In this document: piece by piece, positions 2,191 through 58,169 of the stretch
How the letters are laid out: every line of letters starts with the position of its first letter
Numbering within the stretch: the stretch's first letter is position 1
NCBI RefSeq assembly: GCF_041647995.1
Contig: NZ_JARRIB010000005.1
Span: forward strand, 124,001-188,000
Source of the DNA: Pyrococcus kukulkanii
Lineage (GTDB): Archaea; Methanobacteriota_B; Thermococci; Thermococcales; Thermococcaceae
Length of the DNA: 64,000 bases
Reading direction: 5' to 3'
Notes under the pieces: model-generated
The model's database searches: none
What the model saw: only the letters and a program-made list of their open reading frames with translations
Told to the model about the DNA's origin: nothing
Translations under genes and position numbers: made by a program

Positions 2191-6867
<4,677 letters not shown>

Positions 6868-9105
6868 CTATTGAGTTTCCCTTGCTATGTCATCTATTCT
6901 AAATATCCCCCTATCAAAAACATTCTTCCCAAAGTAGACATATCGTACCACAACGCTATTATTGAGATCTTGAGGCATGAAAAAGCTGTCCTTATTCTTA
7001 ACGTTAAATGTTCCTTTATAGACTAAAGTCCCGTTGTCAAGATAACCATATAGCCCCAGCTTGACTCCCTTCGGATCAAGGAATCTAAGTACAATGCGTC
7101 CATTAGAGCCTTCAACGACAACGTTTGGATGGATGAACTTAAATATCTTCACCATACCACCGTCAGAATAAACCAACTTATACCCAGGATAAGAGTTAGT
7201 CGCCATCATCTTAACCATAGGAGTGTTAAAAGTCTTTGAATCAGCTAACACAGCGTAACCATAGTTAAAGTTCACGTAAGCGTACAAGTCAGCATTAGAA
7301 TTGTATTCAATCCTATAAATTCTGTCCCCCATTTCAACGTACGCTTCCCTTGGCCGCCCCACTATTCCATTTGCAGTAATACGAACATCCCAACCATTAC
7401 GAGATGGCACTGCGACAATGGTTATGTCCCCTCTTGTAAAAGTATACTTCTCAGATCTATACAGGAGAAGAAGCCTGTAACCTGTTACATTTGCAGTTTT
7501 AACCACGGCTTGGAACTTATATAAGATATTGTACGATACTATCACGTAATCCACACCAATATTCATTAGGCTCTTATTATTGACTAACCCCAAGTAGTAC
7601 CTCGCAACAAACCTGCTTGGGCTTCCCTGGGCTACGGGGGCCCTTGTAGAGTAATAGGTTACCCAATGGCCATAATCCCACCACACTAGAACTATGTCGT
7701 TTACATTAGAATTCTCTCCCAGCCACGAAAGAGCATCTTCCCAATATTTATTCATTTCCGGCTTGAGGTTAAGCGTTTCATACATTCCATGCACTGAAGA
7801 AATTAAAATTACAGTCGCTAATGTTATGATGGCAATTTTCCTTTTACTTTTACTTAACTTAAGAGAAGAGAGACCAAGGGCAGCCATTAAGGATATTGCA
7901 ACTGAGGCTAGGAAAAGAAATCTCGTCCAAATAATAGCCATGGGAACTAGTACTAATACCGTTCCCAATGTCAACAGGGTAAATACGTTTAGTCTCCTAA
8001 ACCTAAGCGGATATAGGAAAGCCAACGCAAACTGAGGACCATATGCTATCCAGAAGTCTCTTAATGTAGTCCTCTGGGTCTCGGAAATTGGAGAGGTTAA
8101 AAATATTTTGTTTAAAAGGGTTGAAAATATTGAGTAGTACTTAGAATATAGTATTAAACCACCAACCACGACTAAAACCGTTAGCGTTATTGCCCTCGTC
8201 TTTACGTCTTTGAGGAATCTTGAGGCAAGAAGTACGATTACAGCCAGAAGGAGTACCAAGAGGACAATTTTGAAGAGATAATAAAGGAATATGTCATGCA
8301 AGAATCCAAATTCCAGCCCAAACTTCTTTGATAGGTAATTTCCCGTTCCCTTATTTTCCCCAAGCATTCCGAAGCCAACTTTCTCACCCAGAACACTTGC
8401 CAAGATTATAGAGGGTAAGATGAGGCTTATCGAAATAAAAGCATGGGGCAACATATCATCTTTTGATAACAAAAACGAACCAATTAATAGGAATACTGCA
8501 TTCGCAAGTACTAAAATGAAAATCGGATAATACGCCTGCCAAAAAACTGAGGCCAAGGCGGGAGATATAAAAATTAAGGAATAAGCGATAATCCTTTCCC
8601 ATGTGTTTCTAGATGATATTAAAAGGGAAAAACCGAAAAACGTAACTGAGTACCAGAACAACATATAGTTGTCGCCTCTATAGTAATTGGCCATAGATCG
8701 CATAATGTGTCCGAAGTTAAAAGCAAAGAGAAGTGAAAACAGTGCTGCCGTCTTATACCCATAAACCCTACTTAGGGCGTACGTAAAGAATACAATCGTT
8801 AGAACTCCAAATATTACAGGGGTTACTTTAAAAGCAAAATCAATGGAGCCTGGAAGTATTTTAGAAAGGTAGGCTGGAGTTGCCCAGAGGCCAAGAGGGT
8901 GAAAGAGCTTTACCTTCATCCCCCATGGGCCAAGGGCATAGGGGAAAAAGTTCACCCACTGGCCTTTCTCCATGCAATACAGGATGTACTTTAAGTGGAA
9001 ATAAGGATCGTAACCGTACATATATTTCATCCTTAAAGGAACCAGTCTAACTACTAAAGCTAAAACTATACCTAGGATTGTCATATATCTATACTTGACC
9101 CTCAT
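6868..9105 (-). CDS. aglB: Oligosaccharyltransferase, STT3/AglB family (short form)
   Basis: A 745-residue membrane enzyme that transfers lipid-linked glycans to Asn in secreted proteins. The N-terminal half has about a dozen membrane helices; GYDPYFHLKY near residue 33 holds the first acidic metal-binding site, and VWWDYGHWVTYYSTRAP near residue 474 is the hallmark WWDYG acceptor-binding motif, followed by a soluble C-terminal domain. Pyrococci carry long and short AglB paralogues; this length fits the short one. ATG at 9105 is preferred because GGGTGATACC precedes it and the upstream gene stops four bases before; an upstream in-frame ATG at 9129 lies inside that gene. It ends a leftward operon of membrane proteins. 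Confidence 0.93.
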   Translation of the reverse strand: MRVKYRYMTILGIVLALVVRLVPLRMKYMYGYDPYFHLKYILYCMEKGQWVNFFPYALGPWGMKVKLFHPLGLWATPAYLSKILPGSIDFAFKVTPVIFGVLTIVFFTYALSRVYGYKTAALFSLLFAFNFGHIMRSMANYYRGDNYMLFWYSVTFFGFSLLISSRNTWERIIAYSLIFISPALASVFWQAYYPIFILVLANAVFLLIGSFLLSKDDMLPHAFISISLILPSIILASVLGEKVGFGMLGENKGTGNYLSKKFGLEFGFLHDIFLYYLFKIVLLVLLLAVIVLLASRFLKDVKTRAITLTVLVVVGGLILYSKYYSIFSTLLNKIFLTSPISETQRTTLRDFWIAYGPQFALAFLYPLRFRRLNVFTLLTLGTVLVLVPMAIIWTRFLFLASVAISLMAALGLSSLKLSKSKRKIAIITLATVILISSVHGMYETLNLKPEMNKYWEDALSWLGENSNVNDIVLVWWDYGHWVTYYSTRAPVAQGSPSRFVARYYLGLVNNKSLMNIGVDYVIVSYNILYKFQAVVKTANVTGYRLLLLYRSEKYTFTRGDITIVAVPSRNGWDVRITANGIVGRPREAYVEMGDRIYRIEYNSNADLYAYVNFNYGYAVLADSKTFNTPMVKMMATNSYPGYKLVYSDGGMVKIFKFIHPNVVVEGSNGRIVLRFLDPKGVKLGLYGYLDNGTLVYKGTFNVKNKDSFFMPQDLNNSVVVRYVYFGKNVFDRGIFRIDDIARETQ

Positions 9106-9109
9106 GGTA

Positions 9110-9352
9110 TCACCCGCTAAGCACTTCATATACTTTCTTTAGGACAATCACGACAAATGTTGCAAGGAGAACTTCCACTATTGGAGTGATATTATCCTTT
9201 TGTTTTTTTGACATGTATTCCCCACCAACAGTTATTGCTACCAGAATTCCTATCAAGGACAGTGTTAGAAAAACATCCACCTTAGACGTCAAGAGGGCAG
9301 ATAGAACGATCCAAACTGAAATAAAAGATAGAATGTAGTCACTCACATCCAT
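9110..9352 (-). CDS. Small membrane protein, 80 aa, unknown
   Basis: An 80-residue protein with three predicted helices (SFISVWIVLSALL, VFLTLSLIGILVAITVG and EVLLATFVVIVLKKV) and a short charged loop SKKQKDN. It overlaps the upstream gene by about ten bases and stops four bases before the aglB start, so the three genes are one transcription and translation unit. I do not recognise a family. Its placement suggests a membrane partner of AglB or of the protein encoded at 9343-10092, which is inference only. Confidence 0.75.
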   Translation of the reverse strand: MDVSDYILSFISVWIVLSALLTSKVDVFLTLSLIGILVAITVGGEYMSKKQKDNITPIVEVLLATFVVIVLKKVYEVLSG

Positions 9353-10092
9353 TCGCTAATCCCTCCAAGTTTTTTCACGGTAATTCTAACTCTCTCACCA
9401 ACAATCTCAAACCTCTCACTTTCAAGTAGTTGCCCACTGCCCTTTGCCAACCCCAAGAGAACTGAAGAGCATATTGGACATGCAACTTGATTACAGTTCT
9501 TAACTTGCCTCTTGCAAAATTCCATATTTCTAGGCTTCACATAGACGTAAAATGTATCACCGGCATCTTCTATATGGATACTTTCAGCAAGTTCTAGGAA
9601 TCTAAGAACCGCAGTGCTAACACTTTCAACTTCTGAAACACTAGTTATTTCCCCCTCTAAGTGCTCCTCAAATTTTTCAACAATTTTACCCCCAGGAGGC
9701 TTTATTAATAAGCCCATCTCACGTTCACTACTTACTTCAGTTAAGAACACAGAATCCTCACTTAACTTACCTAGGTCTATTCTATAATCTTGAACTAAGG
9801 GAATAAAGATGCCACCTTCCGGTAAATTTTCATAAGGCGGTATGTAAACAGCATTTCCCTCTAATCCAAGATCGTTAATCATTTTTTTCAAGCTTTCCTG
9901 AACCGAAGTAACAACGAGATCTAAAGTATCCCTTCGAACGTACTCCTCAGATTTAAAGGCTAGAACAACGGCGCCAATTATCAAAGCAGCTAGTCCAATG
10001 TTAAGGGTGTCTGTGCCCATAATCACTGAAATTATAGTCACAAATATTCCAATTCCAATGATCGCCAACCCAGAGATTAAAACCCTCTTCAT
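9343..10092 (-). CDS. Membrane-anchored protein with cytoplasmic-looking domain and Cys cluster, unknown
   Basis: A 249-residue protein from ATG at 10092 (MKRVLISGLAIIGIGIF). Two membrane helices occupy the first 50 residues, followed by about 200 soluble residues. Near the C-terminus is a cluster FCKRQVKNCNQVACPICS with four Cys residues, which might bind a metal or be lipid-modified or redox active. A GTG at 10110 would add six residues but leaves only 27 bases to the divergent gene. It is the first gene of the leftward operon ending with aglB and faces the MoxR operon across a shared promoter. No family recognised. Confidence 0.75.
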   Translation of the reverse strand: MKRVLISGLAIIGIGIFVTIISVIMGTDTLNIGLAALIIGAVVLAFKSEEYVRRDTLDLVVTSVQESLKKMINDLGLEGNAVYIPPYENLPEGGIFIPLVQDYRIDLGKLSEDSVFLTEVSSEREMGLLIKPPGGKIVEKFEEHLEGEITSVSEVESVSTAVLRFLELAESIHIEDAGDTFYVYVKPRNMEFCKRQVKNCNQVACPICSSVLLGLAKGSGQLLESERFEIVGERVRITVKKLGGISEWM

Positions 10093-10152
10093 CGTCAGAC
10101 CCAAGATCACTAACCCCCAAATATTTAAAAGGGTTATATGTTAGTGAGAGCG
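10093..10152. promoter_or_regulatory. Shared divergent promoter of the AglB-linked and MoxR operons
   Basis: Only 60 bases separate the preferred starts at 10092 and 10153. They contain one A/T box reading AATATTTAAAAGG in one direction and CCTTTTAAATATT in the other, which could serve as TATA box for both. Counting about 25 bases puts transcription starts very near both start codons, implying leaderless or nearly leaderless messages. One box serving both operons would make their expression mutually exclusive or tightly balanced. Confidence 0.5.
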
Positions 10153-11880
10153 ATGAGGAAAGTCCTTACTTCACTGGCAATAGTCTTACTCCTTATAACC
10201 CCAACACTAGCTCAAATTAGACAGGTAAAATTTGAAAGTGCCCTTAGAGATGATTCCGCGTTGTATGAGTTTTTCTCGACAATCTTAGATATCTCAGCCT
10301 CAGCTCTTAAAGATTTAAATCAGACCCAATATAGTAAACTTCAACTGATAATTAATTGGACAAAAGAAGAGGAGGAATTCTATAGAGCGAGAGGGGTTAA
10401 CATAACATTAACTATGTACCTACCTCCCTTCGTACAGCTCTCAAAGGAGGTAGGGAATATAATCAAAGGTATTAATGATTTTAAAAAATTCTATAACCTT
10501 GGAATGTATACCAAAGCTAAGCTATCCCTGGAATTTGCATTTAATAACCTGAGAGACGCTAATGAGACCATTAAGAGCATCAAGAATATGAAATTTATAG
10601 TAAACAACAATACTAAAGCTTTAGATACCTCAAAAGTCGAAGATGCCCTTGACGATATTGAGAGGCTACTTAGATATTACCTAAAAATAGTATCAAGTAA
10701 AATAACAAGAGATAACACAACACTTGCCGTGTACGTTTCTAAGAAAAATCCCTACATATTTGAAAACGTGACTATATATGGATACTCCATCTTCCCAGAA
10801 GTGACTCTTCACATTGGGAATTACTCCGTCCAGGTGCCTGGAAACTTCTCTATAACTTATAAATTTACTAAAATTGGTTCTTATAGGGTCTATTTAACTG
10901 CAAAAGGCAAAAAGTCAAACACTGTATTAATCAATGTATCTAAGATACCATGTTCAATCATCGTGAATTCCCCCTCAGGTTATCCGAATTCAACGATAGT
11001 ACTCAATGGAGTACTAAGAGATGCTCTTGGATTTCCTATTCCCAACGCGATAATATATGCAAACAATATCCAAATTAAAACGAATGAAAAAGGAGAATTC
11101 TCCATACACTACACTTTTCAGAACCCCGGAACCTACCCAGTAACCATTTTTTATCCAGGAGATAATGTCCATGAAAAATGCTCCAGGAGTACAAAAGTTA
11201 ATGTACTCAAAATGCCTGTTCAAATAAGGATAGAAGGGCCCAGTAAAGCTAGAGTCGGGGAGCTAATAGAGATAACAGGAAATACTAGCGTTCCAGGAAT
11301 TAACATTTCAATACTCGTCGATGGGAAAGAAGTCAAGAAATTTACAGCTCTGCATAAGTTTAAGATGACACTTCGGCTATCCTCCCCAGGAAAGCATGAG
11401 ATAGTGGCAAAGTTCCCCGGAAATTTCCTGTACGCCCCCGCCGAAAGTAATGTTTTAACTGTTAGCGTCTATGTGGTAAAATATGAGGAAATAGCAGGTA
11501 TGGCAATAATAACTCTTCTTGGCCTTTTACTTTATTTGAGGCCTCAAAAAGGTAAAAAGAAAATGGGAATAGTGATTAAGGAGCATGAGATACCTGAAAT
11601 AGCAAAGAAAAAAGAAAATGAAGAAAGAAAGAGCCTCAGAGAGTGGTACAGGAAAACCTACCTTAAGCTTATAGAAAGGTACAAACTAAAAAGAAGCACT
11701 ACTCCAAGAGAGCTGTTAGCTAAAATTGATGATGAAGTTAGAAGAGAGTTCAAAGATGCCACCGAAGTCCACGAAAAAACAGTTTACGGCATGAAGATCC
11801 CCACAAGTATCGAGATTACAAGATTCTTCAGGTCAATAGCTAGAACAATATTGACAATTATAATAGGTGAAAAACTATGA
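10153..11880 (+). CDS. Secreted Ig-like protein with C-terminal membrane helix and DUF4129-like tail
   Basis: About 575 residues from ATG at 10153 (MRKVLTSLAIVLLLITPTLA, a clear signal peptide); an ATG at 10138 gives a longer, less likely form. The outer part has an alpha-helical region to about residue 190, then Ig-like beta repeats with SPSGYPNSTIVLNG, DALGFPIPNA and GPSKARVGELIEITGN. A membrane helix near residue 460 (IAGMAIITLLGLLLYL) is followed by a basic cytoplasmic tail LREWYRKTYLKLIERY with TPRELL, which resembles the DUF4129 domain common in MoxR operons. It overlaps the next gene by four bases. Many N-glycosylation sequons (NIT, NDT, NTS, NFS) suit an AglB substrate. Confidence 0.75.
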   Translation: MRKVLTSLAIVLLLITPTLAQIRQVKFESALRDDSALYEFFSTILDISASALKDLNQTQYSKLQLIINWTKEEEEFYRARGVNITLTMYLPPFVQLSKEVGNIIKGINDFKKFYNLGMYTKAKLSLEFAFNNLRDANETIKSIKNMKFIVNNNTKALDTSKVEDALDDIERLLRYYLKIVSSKITRDNTTLAVYVSKKNPYIFENVTIYGYSIFPEVTLHIGNYSVQVPGNFSITYKFTKIGSYRVYLTAKGKKSNTVLINVSKIPCSIIVNSPSGYPNSTIVLNGVLRDALGFPIPNAIIYANNIQIKTNEKGEFSIHYTFQNPGTYPVTIFYPGDNVHEKCSRSTKVNVLKMPVQIRIEGPSKARVGELIEITGNTSVPGINISILVDGKEVKKFTALHKFKMTLRLSSPGKHEIVAKFPGNFLYAPAESNVLTVSVYVVKYEEIAGMAIITLLGLLLYLRPQKGKKKMGIVIKEHEIPEIAKKKENEERKSLREWYRKTYLKLIERYKLKRSTTPRELLAKIDDEVRREFKDATEVHEKTVYGMKIPTSIEITRFFRSIARTILTIIIGEKL

Positions 11881-12905
11881 AGAGAGCATTTTACTTCACC
11901 CTACTCGCAATTGGGATAGCGATGTTAATAATGCCAGTATCAATCCCCATATTTCTTACAAATGCAGAATTCAGCATATTTAACACTGGGTGGAATGGAT
12001 GCTCCGAATTTGCAAAACTCCTGTATAAAAAAGGAGATGTTATTCCCGTTTTTTCTCCATTTAACTCCTATAAGCTTGAAGACAAGAAAGGAACACTAAT
12101 TATAATAGGCCCTGATATGAGTTATTCTCAGTTGGAAATTGTAGAAATTCAGAAGTTCCTAAAGAATGGTGGAACCCTTATATTAATTGATGACTTTGGG
12201 ACAGGTAACCAGATATTGAAAGGGCTTAATCTCTCTATAAGATTCTCACCAAAAACACCAAAAGAGGTGTTTTATATTAAAAGTTCTTACTTTCCTGTGA
12301 TAGTGAAAATCAAAGATCCAAACATAAGTGCCAACGTAAGTAAAGTTGTACTAAATATGCCCTCCGTGATTATTGGAACTAATGGATCCATGTTTACAAG
12401 CAGAATAACACTTCTTGGGAGGAACTTTAGAGAATACCCAATAATGACAGAGTTTAAATATGAAAAAGGTAGAATAATCTTATTCTCAGATCCCAGTGCC
12501 TTTATAAACGATATGATAAAATTTAATGCAAAATTCATAAATGTTTTCATATCCTTGTATGTAAAGTATCCCGTATATATAGACGAGGCTCACCATTCAA
12601 ACATGAATTTCTATCAAGCGGGAACCTTAGTAATCAGGAGATCCCTAGATAGGAAAAAAGCCTTCTACGTTACAGCCCTTGTTGGAGTCCTTGTTTTATC
12701 TATAGAAAGTGGACTTGCCCTTAGGACACTTGAGGAAATCCTTAAAGCCGCGCTAAAAATCTTAGAAAGACTGTTTAAAGAGGAAGAGAAAAGCATTCAG
12801 GATGTTATAAAGAAGCTTGAAGGAGAAGGATATGATGGTAGAGTGCTAAATAGGATAATGAGTGAAATTAGTAGGTGGTCAAAATGGACGGAAGAAAACT
12901 CCTAA
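11877..12905 (+). CDS. DUF4350-like membrane protein of the MoxR cluster
   Basis: A 342-residue protein with an N-terminal signal anchor (FTLLAIGIAMLIMPVSI), an outward domain and a C-terminal helix (FYVTALVGVLVLSIESGLAL) before a cytoplasmic tail rich in charged helices. The segment TLIIIGPDMSYSQLEIVEIQKFLKNGGTLILIDDFG is typical of DUF4350, a GATase-like fold found in MoxR/DUF58 clusters in bacteria and archaea, thought to bind a partner or ligand without known enzymatic activity. Start ATG overlaps the previous stop in ATGA, and the end overlaps the moxR start by 22 bases, so the operon is tightly coupled. Confidence 0.85.
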   Translation: MKRAFYFTLLAIGIAMLIMPVSIPIFLTNAEFSIFNTGWNGCSEFAKLLYKKGDVIPVFSPFNSYKLEDKKGTLIIIGPDMSYSQLEIVEIQKFLKNGGTLILIDDFGTGNQILKGLNLSIRFSPKTPKEVFYIKSSYFPVIVKIKDPNISANVSKVVLNMPSVIIGTNGSMFTSRITLLGRNFREYPIMTEFKYEKGRIILFSDPSAFINDMIKFNAKFINVFISLYVKYPVYIDEAHHSNMNFYQAGTLVIRRSLDRKKAFYVTALVGVLVLSIESGLALRTLEEILKAALKILERLFKEEEKSIQDVIKKLEGEGYDGRVLNRIMSEISRWSKWTEENS

Positions 12906-13813
12906 GCATCCTCAAAAAGGAAATACACAAGGCAGTTGTAGGAAAAGATGACGTTATAGAGCTACTAACAATAGCATTACTAGCGGAGGGGCACGTAATA
13001 ATCGAAGGAATTCCCGGAGTCGCAAAAACTACAATAGCCAAGAGCTTTGCTCAGGCCCTTGGCCTAAAATTTTCAAGGATCCAGTTAACACCAGATCTGT
13101 TACCCGCTGATATATTAGGAACGGTGTACTATGATCAAATCGACGGGCTTTGGAAAATAAAGAAAGGCCCAATCTTTGCGAATATCGTGTTAGCAGATGA
13201 AATAAATAGAGCTCAACCAAAAACACAGTCTGCACTTTTAGAGGCAATGCAAGAGAGACAAGTTACAATTGAAGGAAAAACGTACAAGCTTGACAGACCT
13301 TTCTTGGTTATAGCAACAAAAAATCCACTAGAATTTGAGGGAGTGTATAATTTACCCGAGGCTCAGATTGATAGGTTTATGATGGAGATCAAGGTGGGAT
13401 ATCCAGATAAAGAGGAAGAACTTGAAATGCTTAGAAGGAAGGACAGAGGAGAATTCAGTGAAGTCAAGACAGTGTTTACAAAGGCTCAAATAATAACTGC
13501 TATAGAAGAGACTAAAAATGTAAAAGTTAGTGATGACGTGCTGAGATACCTCTATGAGATAGTTACAAGAACGAGAACAGATGAAAGACTCTTAATTGGA
13601 GCATCTCCCAGAGCATCGGAGCATCTCCTCTACGCATCTAAGGCAAAAGCATTTCTTGAGGGAAGAGACTACGTTATTCCAGATGACGTGAAGAGCTTGG
13701 CAATTCCCGTTCTCGCACATAGATTAATGGTTAAAGCAGAATATGAAGTAGAAGGTGTGAAGGGAGAAACTATTGTGAGGGAAATATTAGAAAAGGTAGA
13801 GGTGCCCATATGA
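12884..13813 (+). CDS. MoxR-family AAA+ ATPase
   Basis: A 309-residue chaperone-type ATPase. Walker A is GIPGVAKTT near residues 42-50, Walker B is NIVLADEINRAQPKTQSALLEAMQE, sensor 1 lies in FLVIATKNPLEFEGVYNLPEAQIDRF and sensor 2 in GASPRASEHLL. MoxR proteins remodel or activate partner proteins, often with vWA-domain proteins; here the DUF58 protein encoded next contains such a fold. ATG at 12884 follows GGTGGT at the right distance, so the upstream GTG at 12875 is rejected. The stop overlaps the DUF58 start in ATGA. Confidence 0.93.
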   Translation: MDGRKLLSILKKEIHKAVVGKDDVIELLTIALLAEGHVIIEGIPGVAKTTIAKSFAQALGLKFSRIQLTPDLLPADILGTVYYDQIDGLWKIKKGPIFANIVLADEINRAQPKTQSALLEAMQERQVTIEGKTYKLDRPFLVIATKNPLEFEGVYNLPEAQIDRFMMEIKVGYPDKEEELEMLRRKDRGEFSEVKTVFTKAQIITAIEETKNVKVSDDVLRYLYEIVTRTRTDERLLIGASPRASEHLLYASKAKAFLEGRDYVIPDDVKSLAIPVLAHRLMVKAEYEVEGVKGETIVREILEKVEVPI

Positions 13814-15057
13814 AGAGAGAGCTTTATATCTGGACGCTTATATTCCTGGGAATCTTTCACTCTTACCTTGTGGGGGATATACCGCCAGCAATTTTCGCAT
13901 TTACATTATTTTTATATATGTATTATTCAAAGCTAACATTCAATCCGAATATTGAAGTCAGGATTTGTAATAACTCAGTATCCATAGAGGAGGGTAAAGA
14001 TATCGAAATTCCTGTTTTCTTCAGGGGGAAAGGAATAGTAAATGCAGAATTTGAGGGGGAGTCTGTAGTTAGCGAAAAAATACGAGTAAGAGTAAAAGGA
14101 CAGAAGGATGTAAAAATTAAAATTAGACCAAAAAGAAAGGGAATATACGAGCTCCATCTTAAAGTAAAGGTAGAGGATTTCTTGGGTTTACAAGTTCAAG
14201 AAAAGATATTTTCAGGAGTTAGAGTTGAAGTCGTTCCTTCAGTAGACTCAATAAGAGAAGCTGCAAAAGAAGAGTATAGACTTAGATTAAAGGAAAGGTA
14301 CAAGAAAGGAGTTATAGGAACCGAGAGCCTTGAGTTTTACGGCCTCAGGGAGTATATTCCTGGGGATGATATCAAGAAGATTGACTGGAAGGCCTCAGCT
14401 AGACTAAAGAAGCTCATAATAAGGGAATTTTTGAAAGAAAAGGAGAGTGAGGTCTACATAATTTTAGACCAAAGTAGAGAAATGAGAAAAGGAAAAATTG
14501 ACTATGCATCAGCCCTAGCATTATACATAGCAACAATGTTAATTCGGAACGGATATTATGTTGGCCTTATAAAATACTGGGAAGGAGGATATAAGAGGAT
14601 CCCCCCAGGAAGGGGGGAAGGTCATCTTAACAAGATAAGAATGGAAATAAAATACAAGAGGGAAAGAGGCATTCTTAGCTTAAGGGCAGAGATAAAAAAG
14701 GTAAGCACAAAAGCTCTAAATTTCCTTAGGAAATCCTTCAGAAAAAGAAAAGGAATATGGGAGGCCCTCCTTGAAATAAAAACTCCTTCATATATAATTA
14801 TAATTTCTGACCTAACAAGTCAAACATCACGACTTTATGCCTTATTATCAATAATTAGGAAGAAGCACAGAATAATAATCTTATCCCCAAATCCTGTTTT
14901 ATTTTATCAAGGAGAGCTCAATGAGGAGACACTAAGAAAGCTTTACAGGAGAATGAAAGAGAGAGAAAACTTAATTAAAAAATTTAACGCCCTTGTCCCA
15001 ACGATAGACCTAGGGCCAAGTGACTATGGAAAAGAAGTCCTTAGGGTGATAAAATGA
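13810..15057 (+). CDS. DUF58 protein (vWA-like) of the MoxR cluster
   Basis: A 415-residue protein with two N-terminal helices (IWTLIFLGIFHSYLVG and IFAFTLFLYMYY), a beta-rich domain, and the DUF58 signature YGLREYIPGDDIKKIDWKASARLKKLIIREF, followed by a vWA-like EVYIILDQSREMRKGKIDYA. In the family this domain is the probable client or partner of MoxR. The MIDAS-like DQSRE keeps Asp and Ser positions but is not the full DxSxS. Overlaps on both sides are ATGA type, fixing the operon order Ig-like protein, DUF4350, MoxR, DUF58, membrane protein. Confidence 0.92.
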   Translation: MKRELYIWTLIFLGIFHSYLVGDIPPAIFAFTLFLYMYYSKLTFNPNIEVRICNNSVSIEEGKDIEIPVFFRGKGIVNAEFEGESVVSEKIRVRVKGQKDVKIKIRPKRKGIYELHLKVKVEDFLGLQVQEKIFSGVRVEVVPSVDSIREAAKEEYRLRLKERYKKGVIGTESLEFYGLREYIPGDDIKKIDWKASARLKKLIIREFLKEKESEVYIILDQSREMRKGKIDYASALALYIATMLIRNGYYVGLIKYWEGGYKRIPPGRGEGHLNKIRMEIKYKRERGILSLRAEIKKVSTKALNFLRKSFRKRKGIWEALLEIKTPSYIIIISDLTSQTSRLYALLSIIRKKHRIIILSPNPVLFYQGELNEETLRKLYRRMKERENLIKKFNALVPTIDLGPSDYGKEVLRVIK

Positions 15058-15551
15058 TAGGTCTCGCAGCCTTATTAGTAGCAGGTCTGATGTTAAAAAA
15101 TCCCGCTCCTTTACTTCTAATCCCTAGCTATCTCGTTAAAAATAAGGATATAAAATTACTCATATATGTAGTATACTCCATAGTTGCGATGGGAACAATA
15201 AGCACAGAGATCCTCGAAGGTATTTTTATGTTTGTTATACCTTCAATTTTTGCTTTATACGAAATACTAACAGAGTACAGACCATCTCACAAGGACATAA
15301 TTATTATAGCCCTACTAATTGCGGGAATTATTTATAGGCCACTTTATTATTCAGGGATATTAGTGGGAATGGGGGTTCATGCAAAAGGGGGAGAAAGAAA
15401 AGCCCTTGCCAAGATAGGGCTGATGTCCCTTGCTGTGGGCACGATGCTGGGAATATCTGTTATGCTAGGAGCAGACCTTAAGGATACTGCCCCGATAGTC
15501 ATTAGTTTAGGGATACTCATCGCAAGCTCAAGATTTTTAACTCTTGAGTAA
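15054..15551 (+). CDS. Polytopic membrane protein ending the MoxR operon
   Basis: A 165-residue protein made almost entirely of hydrophobic helices, about five or six (AALLVAGLMLKNPAPLLLIPSYLV, IYVVYSIVAMGTI, FMFVIPSIFALYEI, IIIIALLIAGIIY, IGLMSLAVGTMLGISVML, IVISLGILIASS). It starts in an ATGA overlap with the DUF58 gene and its end overlaps the convergent pckG by 15 bases. I cannot assign a family; in other MoxR clusters a small membrane protein of this sort is often present. Role unknown. Confidence 0.8.
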   Translation: MIGLAALLVAGLMLKNPAPLLLIPSYLVKNKDIKLLIYVVYSIVAMGTISTEILEGIFMFVIPSIFALYEILTEYRPSHKDIIIIALLIAGIIYRPLYYSGILVGMGVHAKGGERKALAKIGLMSLAVGTMLGISVMLGADLKDTAPIVISLGILIASSRFLTLE

Positions 15552-52077: not shown

Positions 52078-53183
52078 AGGTCTTAGTTCTGGCTATTGAC
52101 AGAGATAATGATTTCGGTGTGAAAGCTGGTGTTAAGGGCCCAGTTATTGGGAGAGATAAATGTTTGGATGCAGCAATAAAGCTTAGCCTGGCTGATCCTG
52201 AAGATAGTGATGCAAACACTTTATTTGCTGCGATAAAACTCTATGATGAGCTTAAAGAAAGCAAGGAATTTAAAGATGTAGAAGTGGCTTTAATTACCGG
52301 TCACCATAACGTGGGTGTCAGGAGTGATATAGAGCTAAGTCGACAACTAGATGAAGTTCTCAAGATATTTCCAGCTGACGGCGTCATTCCTGTAACTGAT
52401 GGCGCTGAAGACGAACAAATATTTCCTCTCATAACATCAAAAGTTCCAATAGTGAGTACAAGGAGAGTCGTTGTCAAGCAAAGTCCAGGAATAGAGACTA
52501 CCTGGTACATTATAGTCAGGTATCTAAAAGAGATTATGAACGATCCGGAAGCGTCAAAAGTTGTCTTGGGAATCCCGGGACTTATAGTTCTTCTCTACGG
52601 CATAGCTAAGCTAATATCCCTGAAGTACCCACCGAGCGCCCAAATAGTTTCCTCAGCGGTTACTGGCGTTGTGATGCTTATTGTAGGAGGATACTTCTTC
52701 ATAAAGGGCATGAAAATAAGGCCATTAGAATTGATAAGCAGAGGATTTATAACATTCATTGGAGTTATTACAGGTTTAATAGTAATACTTGGGGGAGCCA
52801 TAAACGTCTACCTTACACTTGAAACTATATCAACGAAAATGATAGGGGGGATACCAAGCAGTGATTTGATAGCTCTACTTATTTACCTTAACGCCGTCAA
52901 TCCATACTTTATCCTTGGCTTTGGAATAATACTTGCCGGAAAAACAATCCAAGGATATTTACGGAAAAATCCCCACATATGGTACTATACTTCCGGCATA
53001 TTAATGCTCCCTGCGTTTTGGAAAGTCATCGACTTAATAACAAAATACTCAAATCCTTTAATAAAGAGGAATCCAGGGGATATAGTACTTGGCATAGTTT
53101 TAATTTTATTAAACATTGGAATAAGCATTTTGGCAGGCATAAAATTAAGAGAAAAAGTCAAGAGCTGGACTTTTTCATCCTGA
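52074..53183 (+). CDS. DUF373 membrane protein
   Basis: 369 residues. The N-terminal 150 form a soluble Rossmann-like part (LVLAIDRDNDFGVKAGVKGPVIGRDKCLDAAIKLSLADPEDSDANTLFAAIKLYDEL, VALITGHHNVGVRSDIELSRQLDEVL, PVTDGAEDEQIFPLITSKVPIVSTRRVVVKQS), the rest six or seven helices. This is the archaeal DUF373 family, function unknown. Coupled to the upstream thiamine-binding-like gene; 3' end overlaps the convergent surface protein by 26 bases. Confidence 0.92.
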   Translation: MKVLVLAIDRDNDFGVKAGVKGPVIGRDKCLDAAIKLSLADPEDSDANTLFAAIKLYDELKESKEFKDVEVALITGHHNVGVRSDIELSRQLDEVLKIFPADGVIPVTDGAEDEQIFPLITSKVPIVSTRRVVVKQSPGIETTWYIIVRYLKEIMNDPEASKVVLGIPGLIVLLYGIAKLISLKYPPSAQIVSSAVTGVVMLIVGGYFFIKGMKIRPLELISRGFITFIGVITGLIVILGGAINVYLTLETISTKMIGGIPSSDLIALLIYLNAVNPYFILGFGIILAGKTIQGYLRKNPHIWYYTSGILMLPAFWKVIDLITKYSNPLIKRNPGDIVLGIVLILLNIGISILAGIKLREKVKSWTFSS

Positions 53184-55860
53184 GATACGTTAATAAGGTA
53201 ACAAGAATTGCCAGTACCCCAGCCCCAATTGCAAGTTTCTTTAATCCCTCTTTCCCTTCAACGTTCTCTTTCACTGGAATCTTTAGTGTATGTTCAAATA
53301 TGTAGACATTATCATCTCCCTTATCCCTGTCGCCCACGGCTCTTATTCTAATGAGTACGTTGTATACCTTTGGTATAGCATCTTTATCTACGGTTAGTGT
53401 AATTACACCCTCGCCAGTTTGATTCGGTTCAAGGGTGCCCACATAGTCCGTCCTCTTAACTAGGGTAAATGGCTGAGACGGTTTAACAAACCCCTCAATA
53501 ACAACACTTTCTGCTTTCTCTCCCCCAATGTTCTTTACAGTGACGTAGATATTCACGTCCTTTCCCTGAACTGGCTCAGGCTTAAATTCAACCCTCTCTA
53601 CCACTATATTCGGCTTCTCCTCAATAATAATAGGGATAGAGAGGTTCAGTTCTTTAAACTCCCCACTAGGATCTTTATACACTACAACGACTGGTATTTG
53701 ATACGTCCCAGGTTTTGCATCCTTATCAATATCCACTTTAAAAGATGCTTTCGCAGAGTCACCTTGCTTAAGGGTGCCAACGTTTATAATCTGGTCACTG
53801 GTTTTGCTCAACTTGAAAGGATACGATGGCATAGGCTTAACCAACACGTACCTAGCTTCCCCACTTCCAATGTTTTCTACAGTGAATGCCACCTCAACAT
53901 CTGAATTTCCAGGTAATACTCTTGATGGAGACGTAGAAACCCCACTAATTACGATCATTTCAGCGCCAGTAACATCTATACCAATTATTCGTTCATCAGA
54001 GAATTCCATATCATCGGGAGAAGACAGGTAAGCTAAAGATACCTTGAGAGGATAAACATTATTCTCTAATCTGTCATTAGCCTTGAGCACGAAACTCAGT
54101 TGAATTGTCTGATTTGGAAGAATAATTCCGTCATATTTGACGTTGTCTTCTCCGACGGGTAAGAATGCTGGCATTCTTTCAATGGCAATTTCCCCTATTA
54201 ATTGGTTTATTGCTGACTGTAAATTCTCCAAGATCTGTTGGCTCTGAGATATGGGAAGTGAGGATAGCTGAGATAAATCAATTTTCTGAATTTCCCTCCT
54301 AATTAAAACTTCTACAGGTATTATTTTAACTCTTAATCCCTTAGCATAACCTTCTCCTACGTTCTTTAGCGTTAACGTAACTCTAAAGGTCATTCCCGGC
54401 TCCACTTTTTTTGGCTCTATCGTGACATTCTCAATCTCTATAAAAGCAGCCCTACGCCTTATAACCGTAGTAGAGAACGTAAATTCTTGAGTTATCTGCT
54501 CATTAGTATTTCCGGAGTAATATGTAACCCTTAATTTGAAAATGTAAGTACCTGTTTTCACTGATTCATCAACGTGTAATTTGAACTCCTTAACAATAGT
54601 CTCGCCACTTTCAACGAATTTAGCGTAAAATGAATTTGATGATACTGGAGCAAATGGCCTTCCCTTTATATCTTCAAGGATTAGGGTGCCCAAAACATCT
54701 TTCGCAGTATCAGAACCTGAGTTTTTGAGCACAACTTTTACTGTGAAGTCTTCCCCAGGATAAACTACCTTGGGGATTGATTGATTCTCAACGATAAACG
54801 TTGCCTCGTAATCCCTTGCTATCGTAACTGCCGTGGAATCATAGAGCACCCTCTGTTCCAAGTTCTCCCCTGTTGTATAGGAGAAGTAAACTACGGTTAA
54901 GTACAGGGGATAGTCTCCAGGCCTAGCGTTCTCGTTCGCCTTGTAGCTAAATGTTATCACCTTATCCTCCCCAGGTTCAATGTAGTCAATAAATTTCATC
55001 GTAGTTCCCAATGGATATAGGCTACCCTGAGCCACTCCAGTCTGAGCAAGTGTTTGAGGTAGCACTGAAACAGCACTTTCCTCCCTGCTAGTGACCTCTG
55101 GGATTAGGGGAGTTGGAGATAGCATCACGGTCACGAATCTTACTCGTCTGGATCCTATATTCTTTAGGTGAACGTTCACATAGAATATTTCACCTGGACG
55201 TACCGTTCCTTTAACTTCTATTTTTGAAAGGAGTAAACCCTGAACCATAGAGACTCTCCATTTTATCGGGCCACTTATGCTAATTTTGGCCCCATTCGGG
55301 TAAACGAAGAGGGGAGTGATGTAGAGAGTTTCGCCATGATACTCAATCTTTACTGTCTCATTTACACCCACAGGCCTAGCGTTTGGTACTAATATTGGCT
55401 TAGCTATGTCATTTAGCGAGATCCCTAGCTCTGGATGCTCTTCAATAGTTTTAACTATAGCGTTCCAAACTTCCATTTGGGATGCAGAGGACAACCATCT
55501 CAAAAACTTGACATATTCGATTGGGTTATCTGGATCATAACCCAAGGTCTCCGCCATGGCTCTTAGGAAAGTTTGATTTGCAAGGAGTTGCTGAACTTTT
55601 CCAGGATCTGGCACGTATATCTTCGTTAAATTTGGACCAATCGGGTTCATGTCTTCATCGAGGACTATAAACAAAACTTTCCACTCTCTGTCATTGATAT
55701 CGTATACAACGTCCTTCACAATAACCGTGAGTGGACCAACCAAGAGATAGTCTCCTTTATCCACGTACCCCTCGAACAGTAGCTCAGGACCTTGAGCCCA
55801 ACCCGGGGTAATTAGCATGGCTATTATCATCAAAATAGCAATTAGCTTACCCTCTTTCAT
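53158..55860 (-). CDS. Large surface protein with NEW3/CARDB-type repeats
   Basis: 900 residues. Signal peptide LIAILMIIAMLITPGWA, then four or five Ig-like repeats with phrases such as VKGTVRPGEIFYVNVHLKNIGSRRVRFV, SIPKVVYPGEDFTVKVVLKNSGSDTAKDV, TIEPKKVEPGMTFRVTLTLKNVGEGYAKGL and VEFKPEPVQGKDVNIYVTVKNIGGEKAES (CARDB/NEW3 fold), and a C-terminal anchor GLKKLAIGAGVLAILVTLLTYL. It is coupled in ATGA to the RND exporter and is probably its periplasm-side partner or substrate receptor. Confidence 0.88.
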   Translation of the reverse strand: MKEGKLIAILMIIAMLITPGWAQGPELLFEGYVDKGDYLLVGPLTVIVKDVVYDINDREWKVLFIVLDEDMNPIGPNLTKIYVPDPGKVQQLLANQTFLRAMAETLGYDPDNPIEYVKFLRWLSSASQMEVWNAIVKTIEEHPELGISLNDIAKPILVPNARPVGVNETVKIEYHGETLYITPLFVYPNGAKISISGPIKWRVSMVQGLLLSKIEVKGTVRPGEIFYVNVHLKNIGSRRVRFVTVMLSPTPLIPEVTSREESAVSVLPQTLAQTGVAQGSLYPLGTTMKFIDYIEPGEDKVITFSYKANENARPGDYPLYLTVVYFSYTTGENLEQRVLYDSTAVTIARDYEATFIVENQSIPKVVYPGEDFTVKVVLKNSGSDTAKDVLGTLILEDIKGRPFAPVSSNSFYAKFVESGETIVKEFKLHVDESVKTGTYIFKLRVTYYSGNTNEQITQEFTFSTTVIRRRAAFIEIENVTIEPKKVEPGMTFRVTLTLKNVGEGYAKGLRVKIIPVEVLIRREIQKIDLSQLSSLPISQSQQILENLQSAINQLIGEIAIERMPAFLPVGEDNVKYDGIILPNQTIQLSFVLKANDRLENNVYPLKVSLAYLSSPDDMEFSDERIIGIDVTGAEMIVISGVSTSPSRVLPGNSDVEVAFTVENIGSGEARYVLVKPMPSYPFKLSKTSDQIINVGTLKQGDSAKASFKVDIDKDAKPGTYQIPVVVVYKDPSGEFKELNLSIPIIIEEKPNIVVERVEFKPEPVQGKDVNIYVTVKNIGGEKAESVVIEGFVKPSQPFTLVKRTDYVGTLEPNQTGEGVITLTVDKDAIPKVYNVLIRIRAVGDRDKGDDNVYIFEHTLKIPVKENVEGKEGLKKLAIGAGVLAILVTLLTYLRMKKSSS

Positions 55861-58094
55861 CTTTCATCCCTCCCTAGTTTTCTACCAAATTCAAGTTGCA
55901 ATATAGCTGGAGTTACGAGATAAGCGGAAAACATTGAAGCGAATATTCCAACCGCAAGAACTTTACCAAAGTCATGAATCGCAGTAAGTTGGGCAGTTAA
56001 CAAAGCGAGGAATCCACCCGCGGTTGTCAACGCACCCACCAAAATGCCAGGACCAACGCTCTCCATCGCAGTTATTATCGGCGTTTTATTACCCTCCCTT
56101 AACTCTTCTAAGAATCTGTGAGTTATGTGCATCCCATAATCAACCCCAAGCCCCACTATCATAGATACAACACCAGCTAAGGTTTGAGAGAACGGGATTC
56201 CTGCTAGTCCCATGTATCCTATCGTCCATAAAGCTCCAAGGAACATTGGCATTATCATGGCTACTGCAACTGTGGGCCTTCTAAAGATGAGAAATACAAC
56301 GAGAACAACTATAATGGTTCCTATTGTCGATATCCTTCCGATCTCCTTGTCCACAAGATCACCAAGAACGTAATTCAAATACGCACTCCCGGCAAGTTCA
56401 ACCCTGGTGCTTGGTGGGAAGTTAGCCTGCTTTATTTGTTCCTCAAAATATTCCATTATTCTGTTAAACTTCCTCTGCGTTACACCCATGAAGTTACCTT
56501 TAAATTTCACAATCGTCATCGAGTAATCCGAAGAAACTAGGGAAGAATCTTTCAATGCCTCGCTTATCTTCTCTTTGTCCTGGGGTATGTAGCCATACTT
56601 TTGCAACACCTCATCGGCTATGCTTTCCGCAGAGAAGACATTATTCGTATGGGAGTCCGCCTTAACTTCTCGTTCGAATCGCAATATTGCCCTGACGAGG
56701 GTAGGATCCCTTACATCCTCAGCCCTTATTAAAATGTTGACTTCGTCTTGACCCCCAAATTCCGATCTTATGTCTGCAAGAGCCTTTATCTCGGGAAGAT
56801 CCATTGGAATCATTTTTTCGAGCCTGACCTCTGTTGTGACTTTTGTTAGCCCATAAAATGAGACTCCAGAAATTATTAAGGCTACCAGTAAAGCACCCCA
56901 GGGAAACCTCTTAATGCACCCTCCCCACTTGCTAAAGATGAAGGCTATTTTTCCTTCTCCTCCACCTATGGATATTATCTCCTCCTTCTTCAGAACCACC
57001 CTCCTGAAGTCCTCCTCAAGTATCGCAAGAGCTGGTGTTACTATGACGGCATTTAAAGCGGTAAGGCCAAGACCCATAACTAGGGTTATGCTGAGCCTCT
57101 TGAGTGATGGAAGCGTTGAAATTGATAATGCAAGAAATCCAGCTATGGTCGTGAGGGCCGCACCCAACAAGGCCTTTCCGGTCTCAGCTATAGCCTCCTC
57201 CGCAGCTATTTCTGGAGGTTCTCCCTTGGCCCTCTCCTCATAGTATCTGTTCGTGATGTGAACACCGTAATCAATACCCATACCTATTATCATAGCACCG
57301 ACTGTGCTAGTGGCGATATCCAGAGGAATCCCCAAGAGACCCATGAAGCCCAAAGTCATTACAACACCAAATATTAAAGGAATCAGTGGGACAAGCATTC
57401 TAATTGGGGATTTATAGAAGTACAACAAAATTAGTACTACTATTATTCCAGCAACGGCCATCGTCCTATTCATGTCATTTTGAAGCATTTCAAGAACTTT
57501 GTACGTTATCCCGAGATCCCCAGTGAGAACCACATCTACTCCATGGGGAAAGTTTGACCTCTTTACATATCCCTCCATGTCGTTGTAGACTCTGACGAGG
57601 GCTTTCTGGTTTCTCTCCCTGTTTATGTTAACTATGATAATTGTTGAGGAGTAATCTCCACTCACTAGCCCTTTTCTAGCATTTTCAGGAAGAACATTGA
57701 GAACAAAGTTTACCTCCTCCCTGTTCTTTGGGAGCCTTCCCAGGATTTGAACGCAGAGGTCAGCGATGCTGAAAGTATCAGTAACGTACTCCCTCTGCTT
57801 CAGCTCCTGTTCCAAATTGTACATTGCCTCTATTAACTTAGGATCCCTTATGTCCGAAACTTCTTCAGTGGACTTTATCTTTACGTATATAAGAGCAGAA
57901 TCCCCAGTTCCAAACTCATTCTGCAAGATGAAATAGCTTTTCACGGCCTCCAAATCTTCAGGAAGTTGCTTAGAAAGATCACTCTCAAACCTAAGCTGAG
58001 TTAAGCCATAAGCCGATAGAATTAGAAGGAATAATGTTATTATCGCGAGCGAGTGCCTGTACGCAACTATCACCCTCGCGATCTTCCTCAGCAT
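55857..58094 (-). CDS. RND/MMPL-family exporter
   Basis: A 745-residue protein with twelve helices in two halves, each half with a large outer loop and a sterol-sensing-like helix bundle: DIATSTVGAMIIGMGIDYGVHITNRYYEERA and AGVVSMIVGLGVDYGMHITHRFLEELR hold the proton-relay Asp residues. Members (HAE3/MMPL) export lipids or hydrophobic compounds. ATG at 58094 follows GGTGGTTAAC. Divergent from the GbsR/MarR-like regulator. Confidence 0.93.
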   Translation of the reverse strand: MLRKIARVIVAYRHSLAIITLFLLILSAYGLTQLRFESDLSKQLPEDLEAVKSYFILQNEFGTGDSALIYVKIKSTEEVSDIRDPKLIEAMYNLEQELKQREYVTDTFSIADLCVQILGRLPKNREEVNFVLNVLPENARKGLVSGDYSSTIIIVNINRERNQKALVRVYNDMEGYVKRSNFPHGVDVVLTGDLGITYKVLEMLQNDMNRTMAVAGIIVVLILLYFYKSPIRMLVPLIPLIFGVVMTLGFMGLLGIPLDIATSTVGAMIIGMGIDYGVHITNRYYEERAKGEPPEIAAEEAIAETGKALLGAALTTIAGFLALSISTLPSLKRLSITLVMGLGLTALNAVIVTPALAILEEDFRRVVLKKEEIISIGGGEGKIAFIFSKWGGCIKRFPWGALLVALIISGVSFYGLTKVTTEVRLEKMIPMDLPEIKALADIRSEFGGQDEVNILIRAEDVRDPTLVRAILRFEREVKADSHTNNVFSAESIADEVLQKYGYIPQDKEKISEALKDSSLVSSDYSMTIVKFKGNFMGVTQRKFNRIMEYFEEQIKQANFPPSTRVELAGSAYLNYVLGDLVDKEIGRISTIGTIIVVLVVFLIFRRPTVAVAMIMPMFLGALWTIGYMGLAGIPFSQTLAGVVSMIVGLGVDYGMHITHRFLEELREGNKTPIITAMESVGPGILVGALTTAGGFLALLTAQLTAIHDFGKVLAVGIFASMFSAYLVTPAILQLEFGRKLGRDER

Positions 58095-58169
58095 GTTAAC
58101 CACCAAACTTTTGGAAATTTTCGAAAGTTTTATAATTTCAGAAATTTAAAAGTGTTATGGTGGTCACTT
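58095..58169. promoter_or_regulatory. Divergent promoter with palindromic operator candidate
   Basis: A 24-base imperfect palindrome (58106-58129), AACTTTTGGAAA / TTTTCGAAAGTT, is symmetric at 20 of 24 positions. It overlaps the AT-rich promoter region: TTATAAAAC reads leftward to the exporter, TTTATAAT and TTTAAAAG read rightward to the regulator. It is well placed for the regulator to control itself and the exporter. Confidence 0.6.

Follow-up and report, generated by a model that had tools for sequence, protein, structure and literature searches.

Which of the genes crowded around one short promoter region in a Pyrococcus genome form a single system, and what might that system do at the cell surface? 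The locus in question lies at positions 9110–15551 of a 64,000-nucleotide stretch of Pyrococcus kukulkanii DNA (contig NZ_JARRIB010000005.1, positions 124,001–188,000), referred to here as the window, whose coordinates are used throughout unless another sequence is named. How archaea build and keep up their glycoprotein surface is poorly understood. The right arm of the locus encodes an immunoglobulin-like (Ig-like) surface protein with a DUF4129 tail, a DUF4350 protein, a MoxR-family AAA+ ATPase and a DUF58 protein, and the left arm opens with two membrane proteins that we call M249 and M80. Judged by its gene families, the locus appears to be the Thermococcaceae version of a widespread predicted archaeal membrane system, the arCOG01314-associated complex, for which Makarova, Galperin and Koonin predicted in 2015 a role in secretion or membrane remodelling, naming TON_1832 and PAB1295 as Thermococcales representatives (PMC5898192). 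To that prediction we add the co-occurrence of M249, selection for N-glycosylation sequons, a shared promoter and the DUF4129 tail. We put at about an even chance the full reading that these genes specify a DUF4350/MoxR/DUF58/N-glycosylated Ig-DUF4129 membrane system in which MoxR, acting via DUF58, remodels a complex through its tails. The system usually includes a DUF1616 protein and, in Thermococcaceae, M249 and M80 as well.

The two arms are held together by their distribution. Across a sample of 94 Thermococcaceae genomes, DUF4350 and M249 have identical presence sets, with both found in 71 genomes and both missing from the same 23; because the genomes are related, this match does not represent 94 independent events. 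M80 occurs in 72 genomes, gaining G017 and G052 and losing G064 relative to that set. In every one of the neighbourhoods fetched for 20 genomes drawn from a range of the sample, M80, M249, Ig/DUF4129, DUF4350, MoxR and DUF58 follow an identical divergent order. Elsewhere in the class, M249 homologues were found twice in family f4, once alone (locus L102) and once with the divergent layout kept (L103), where M249, an M80-like frame and DUF1616 lie together on a single strand, opposite the Ig gene and the beginning of DUF4350. Together these observations support the view that the divergent arms are one conserved unit, as the original prediction had proposed. Genome G017 carries a deletion scar (L104, 8120–8460; G017:C1, near 708119–708460), consisting of an intact M80 and the last 28–37 residues of M249, with no further match to the divergent locus in the stretch examined. 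Separately, apparent frameshifts or splits in the M249, DUF58 or Ig gene were seen in L034, L035, L043, G022 and G076, reflecting either sequencing error or decay.

The arms also share their regulatory space. In the window, the Ig start codon (ATG 10153, in a longer frame that opens at 10138) and the likely M249 start codon (ATG 10092, in a frame that opens with GTG 10110) are separated by a 60-base region (10093–10152, assigned to neither strand) with one TTTAAAAG core centred near 10127, confirming the single A/T box between divergent starts that had been reported from the sequence. The corresponding gap measures 48–71 bases in 19 other genomes. We compared 20 such intergenic regions, leaving out L044, where the Ig and M249 starts seem misplaced, and found a TTTAAAA/CTTAAAA-type core or close variant in all 20, present once in each except L047, which has two. 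Its distance to the M249 start is usually 25–37 bases, and to the Ig start usually 25–34. One TATA-like box therefore probably drives both arms, with short leaders. Dyad symmetry of the box was barely higher than in shuffled sequences (5.0 versus 4.6), and we accordingly keep only the claim of a single box.

The surface protein itself is encoded by the first right-arm gene (10153–11880, + strand) and comprises a signal peptide, a helical bundle (residues 35–184), three Ig-like domains (190–440), a transmembrane (TM) segment (444–462) and a DUF4129 tail (about 495–571) predicted to lie in the cytoplasm. Its AlphaFold model shows this bundle, three consecutive Ig-like domains, the TM segment and a helical DUF4129 tail. 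Pfam detects Big_3_5 (expectation value, E, 3.7e-11) and Foldseek returned matches to Ig domains only. The window protein scores weakly for DUF4129 (E 0.068); of 20 orthologues, 10 reach E ≤ 0.01, the best at 6.8e-7, so the earlier description of a secreted Ig-like protein with a DUF4129-like tail holds, as does its emphasis on N-X-S/T sites. The window protein has 13 such sequons against about 4.7 expected; summed over the ectodomains of orthologues with a detected TM segment, there are 251 against 75 expected from composition (z = 21), and enrichment is seen in each of 21 Ig proteins (z 2.8–8.1). MoxR, DUF58 and M249 showed no sequon excess when orthologue totals were compared with composition. 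On these counts the Ig ectodomain is under strong selection for N-glycosylation sequons and the protein looks heavily N-glycosylated. The general AglB is the probable source of the N-glycans on the surface parts.

Haloarchaea offer a point of contact with experiment. Haloarchaeal loci carry DUF4350, MoxR, DUF58, DUF1616 and Ig/DUF4129 genes, and a profile built from three haloarchaeal Ig/DUF4129 proteins matches the window Ig family (probability 97.7, E 1.9e-12). In Haloferax volcanii, glycoproteomics has identified four AglB-dependent N-glycosites on HVO_2173, a DUF1616 protein, and three on the secreted HVO_2172 (PMC8241124). A Haloferax genome that contains the exact HVO_2173 glycopeptide has an Ig/DUF4129 gene adjoining DUF1616, followed by DUF58, MoxR and DUF4350, an arrangement that points to HVO_2172 as the Ig/DUF4129 component. 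The haloarchaeal cognate of the Ig protein is thus probably an AglB-dependent glycoprotein proven by mass spectrometry. The Haloferax genome has another DUF1616 gene some 12 kb away (L194, 1738–5010), convergent with a subtilase gene bearing a dockerin-like domain.

If a general AglB serves the surface protein, what is the short AglB (AglB-S) that follows M80 in the window (6868–9129, − strand; an in-frame ATG at 9105 would abolish its overlap with M80)? It contains WWDYG and matches TIGR04154 archaeo_STT3 at E 1.5e-12, below the curated cut-off, and the STT3 core at E 1.9e-4. The original prediction treated it as part of the leftward operon. The M249 and M80 membrane-protein genes of that operon stay with the right arm, whereas AglB-S separates freely: it directly follows M80 only in the window genome (G000) and its closest relative (G007), and elsewhere it lies mostly 4–33 kb away on either side. 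It is absent from six genomes that have the system (G012, G019, G024, G072, G075 and G079) and present in others that lack it, such as G005, G017, G020, G023 and G032; in G017 it sits about 16 kb from the deletion scar. Ig proteins from genomes without AglB-S (L040 and L045) are still enriched in sequons. On its pattern of presence and absence, its position and the sequon counts, we therefore do not accept AglB-S as a component. It nonetheless clusters nearby: of the 29 genomes in which a single large contig carries both, 24 have it within 33 kb of the locus, against 1.3 expected under random placement, a comparison not corrected for kinship and using some rounded genome lengths. DUF1616 instead takes the place following M80, or one close to it, in many other genomes. 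Where DUF1616 and DUF4350 share a contig, they are at most 17.2 kb apart in 63 of 64 genomes, G007 being the outlier at 262 kb; in the window genome DUF1616 is on another contig. DUF1616 is a common but not invariant component. Some flanking genes encode glycosyltransferases, polysaccharide flippases and nucleotidyltransferases, and several haloarchaeal loci likewise sit amid glycosyltransferases and epimerases. Taken with the clustering of AglB-S, these surroundings suggest that the system tends toward surface-glycan islands and does not need AglB-S.

The remaining right-arm genes follow the Ig gene on the + strand, with adjacent frames of the five genes overlapping by 4–22 bases; frame coordinates and clear Pfam matches to DUF4350, MoxR, DUF58 and the Ig domain uphold the earlier account of five overlapping rightward genes. 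The DUF4350 protein (11877–12905; PF14258, E 5.7e-24) is predicted to have an N-terminal TM segment, an extracytoplasmic flavodoxin/GIFT-like domain, a second TM segment near residues 264–282 and a cytoplasmic tail of about 60 residues; two TM segments occur in all orthologues. No solved DUF4350 homologue was found, the best plausible match being the IFT52 GIFT domain (E 0.013). MoxR (12884–13813, alternative start GTG 12875; PF07726, E 8.9e-63) retains intact Walker A (GIPGVAKTT) and Walker B (VLADE) motifs, both mostly invariant among 21 orthologues of 61–96% identity, and its nearest solved structure is 2r44. The DUF58 protein (13810–15057; PF01882, E 7.8e-23) has an N-terminal hydrophobic hairpin, an Ig-like stretch and a vWA-like domain (VWA_2, E 0.0013) whose metal-ion-dependent adhesion site (MIDAS; DxSxS-T-D) is degenerate, reading LDQSREM in the window. 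We place its vWA domain tentatively in the cytoplasm, on the grounds that the start of the protein looks like a hydrophobic hairpin and that the ATPase presumed to be its partner is cytoplasmic. The arm ends with M165 (15054–15551), a fast-evolving protein with about six predicted TM segments. A literature search on MoxR with DUF4129 returned nothing.

On the left arm (− strand), M249 (9343–10092, 249 residues) has an AlphaFold2 model with a mean predicted local distance difference test (pLDDT) score of 84.6, in which two TM helices at the N-terminus are followed by a linking helix and then, at the C-terminus, by a soluble domain of helices and strands. M80 (9110–9352, about 80 residues), which overlaps the end of M249, has three predicted TM segments and a mean column identity of 73%. 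Neither these two nor M165 matched a Pfam family at a meaningful score. Foldseek gave M249 weak matches to TRAPP, YslB and H-NOX (E about 0.005–0.05), ranked behind designed proteins; a sequence search of the PDB was negative, and comparison of the M249 profile with V4R gave no significant match (probability 1.2). A V4R/TRAPP-like identity was set aside as doubtful, the fold hint being weak and the profile comparison negative. A second group of loci (L041, L042, L044, L045, L050 and L051) has an M249 without a Cys cluster and a DUF58 without the first MIDAS Asp.

How might these parts work together? The Ig protein and DUF4350 would form a surface complex, each with a TM anchor and a cytoplasmic tail, and N-glycosylation would modify the surface parts. 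DUF58 would be a membrane protein whose vWA-like domain, turned toward the cytoplasm, docks the MoxR ring, and ATP hydrolysis would alter the conformation or assembly state of the surface complex via the tails, with M249 and M80 as further membrane subunits. We take tail-directed, ATP-driven remodelling of a glycosylated complex to be the likeliest mechanism by analogy with NorQD, an ATP-driven remodeller whose vWA protein links the MoxR ring with the client (PMC9976466, PMC13036017), and agreement with the published prediction supports a remodelled membrane complex (PMC5898192). The purpose of such remodelling may be surface assembly or maintenance. A more elaborate version, in which a through-membrane ATP machine assembles, resets or quality-checks the glycosylated complex, with DUF58 as adaptor, the DUF4129 and DUF4350 tails as handles, M249 as a V4R/TRAPP-like subunit and a bidirectional TATA box, seems doubtful to us.

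Several points weigh against remodelling as set out here. The predicted complex's vWA protein has been listed as likely secreted (PMC5898192), hydropathy at a strict cut-off gives DUF58 0–1 TM segments in place of a hairpin, and sequons are not enriched in the DUF4350 ectodomain (36 versus 39 expected), so that a lack of sequons is no proof of a cytoplasmic side. The equation of HVO_2172 with the Ig/DUF4129 component comes from an exact glycopeptide match and gene adjacency, with no locus tag behind it. The system is missing from 23 of the 94 genomes, though several of these are incomplete assemblies, and for none of its components at this locus did we come across data on interaction, localisation or phenotype.

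Among the competing explanations, the 2015 proposal included protein secretion, with the membrane and Ig proteins forming a conduit or export apparatus powered by MoxR; it was drawn from the same gene families, and HHpred relates DUF4350 to GldG of the gliding/type IX machinery (PMC5898192). We consider it unlikely, given that no channel is obvious, the membrane proteins being single-pass or small save for M165 and the linked DUF1616 protein, and that the characterised NorQD MoxR is a remodeller and not a translocase. In other systems, enzymes are matured or modulated by pairs of MoxR and vWA proteins (PMC9976466, PMC10585395), and MoxR and DUF58 could act as a NorQD- or RavA-ViaA-type chaperone in the maturation of an unlinked membrane enzyme, with the surface proteins as accessories. 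The unit, however, contains no conserved enzyme gene and keeps Ig/DUF4129 and DUF4350 with it in both Thermococcaceae and haloarchaea, which makes this distinctly unlikely.

A surface-sensing or signalling device, in which DUF4350 and the glycosylated ectodomain would sense the surface and MoxR/DUF58 would pass the signal on or reset it, would suit single-pass receptors with conserved cytoplasmic tails, and vWA/MoxR pairs have been implicated in the regulation of archaeal pili (PMC4858521); the unit, however, includes neither a kinase nor a regulator or DNA-binding partner, and we think this reading very unlikely. Least credible, and highly improbable, is the idea inherited from the original prediction that AglB-S is a dedicated oligosaccharyltransferase and the locus couples glycan attachment with remodelling. 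Its place after M80 in the window and its proximity elsewhere favour it, whereas its occurrence apart from the system in both directions, the unchanged sequon enrichment without it and the position of DUF1616 as the normal neighbour speak against it. An anti-phage defence identity was also rejected, PADLOC having given weak AAA+ cross-matches only.

Two further features of the window lie outside the locus. A 1493-residue ribonucleotide reductase frame (2191–6672, − strand) contains two apparent inteins, at about residues 363–760 and 901–1052; the matches in L036 and L040 lack the first intein, and the one in L036 lacks the second as well. At 53158–58106 (− strand), an overlapping gene pair encodes a 900-residue protein with a signal-like start and a 749-residue protein with a hydrophobic N-terminus.

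An ATP-driven machine for the archaeal glycoprotein surface would, if the remodelling reading is right, be new to our knowledge, and the literature we searched held no experimental test of the predicted system. The comparison made here sorts members (M249, M80, Ig/DUF4129, DUF4350, MoxR, DUF58 and usually DUF1616) from a neighbour (AglB-S), and it ties the system to reported N-glycoproteins of the genetically tractable Haloferax volcanii, which makes it testable.

Among known systems, the closest is the arCOG01314-associated complex, with which the locus has a common core of DUF4350, MoxR, an Ig+vWA (DUF58) protein, an Ig-like surface protein, a DUF1616-type protein and small membrane proteins. 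The window contains a DUF4350 protein with two TM segments, MoxR as the MoxR/GvpN-type ATPase of the operon, the Ig+vWA protein and the Ig-like counterpart of the predicted S-layer/surface protein, and has no DUF1616 nearby, which the 2015 paper lists as one of several components. This lineage differs in lacking an adjoining DUF1616 and having AglB-S beside M80, and we argue for a cytoplasmic vWA domain. The haloarchaeal loci, including the probable HVO_2172–2173 region, have five families in common with it and differ in gene order and strands, with low sequence similarity. Bacterial operons are alike in their MoxR-DUF58-DUF4129 set in Thermomicrobium roseum and in the Bat-type MoxR-DUF58-vWA-BatD set in Cetobacterium, but their setting is a bacterial envelope and they have no DUF4350, Ig/DUF4129 fusion or M249/M80 annotated. 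NorQD, finally, offers a works-like model only: it too pairs a MoxR ring with a vWA partner, and the Walker motifs of the locus MoxR are intact, whereas the client of NorQD is an enzyme that undergoes metal insertion, without glycosylated surface proteins.

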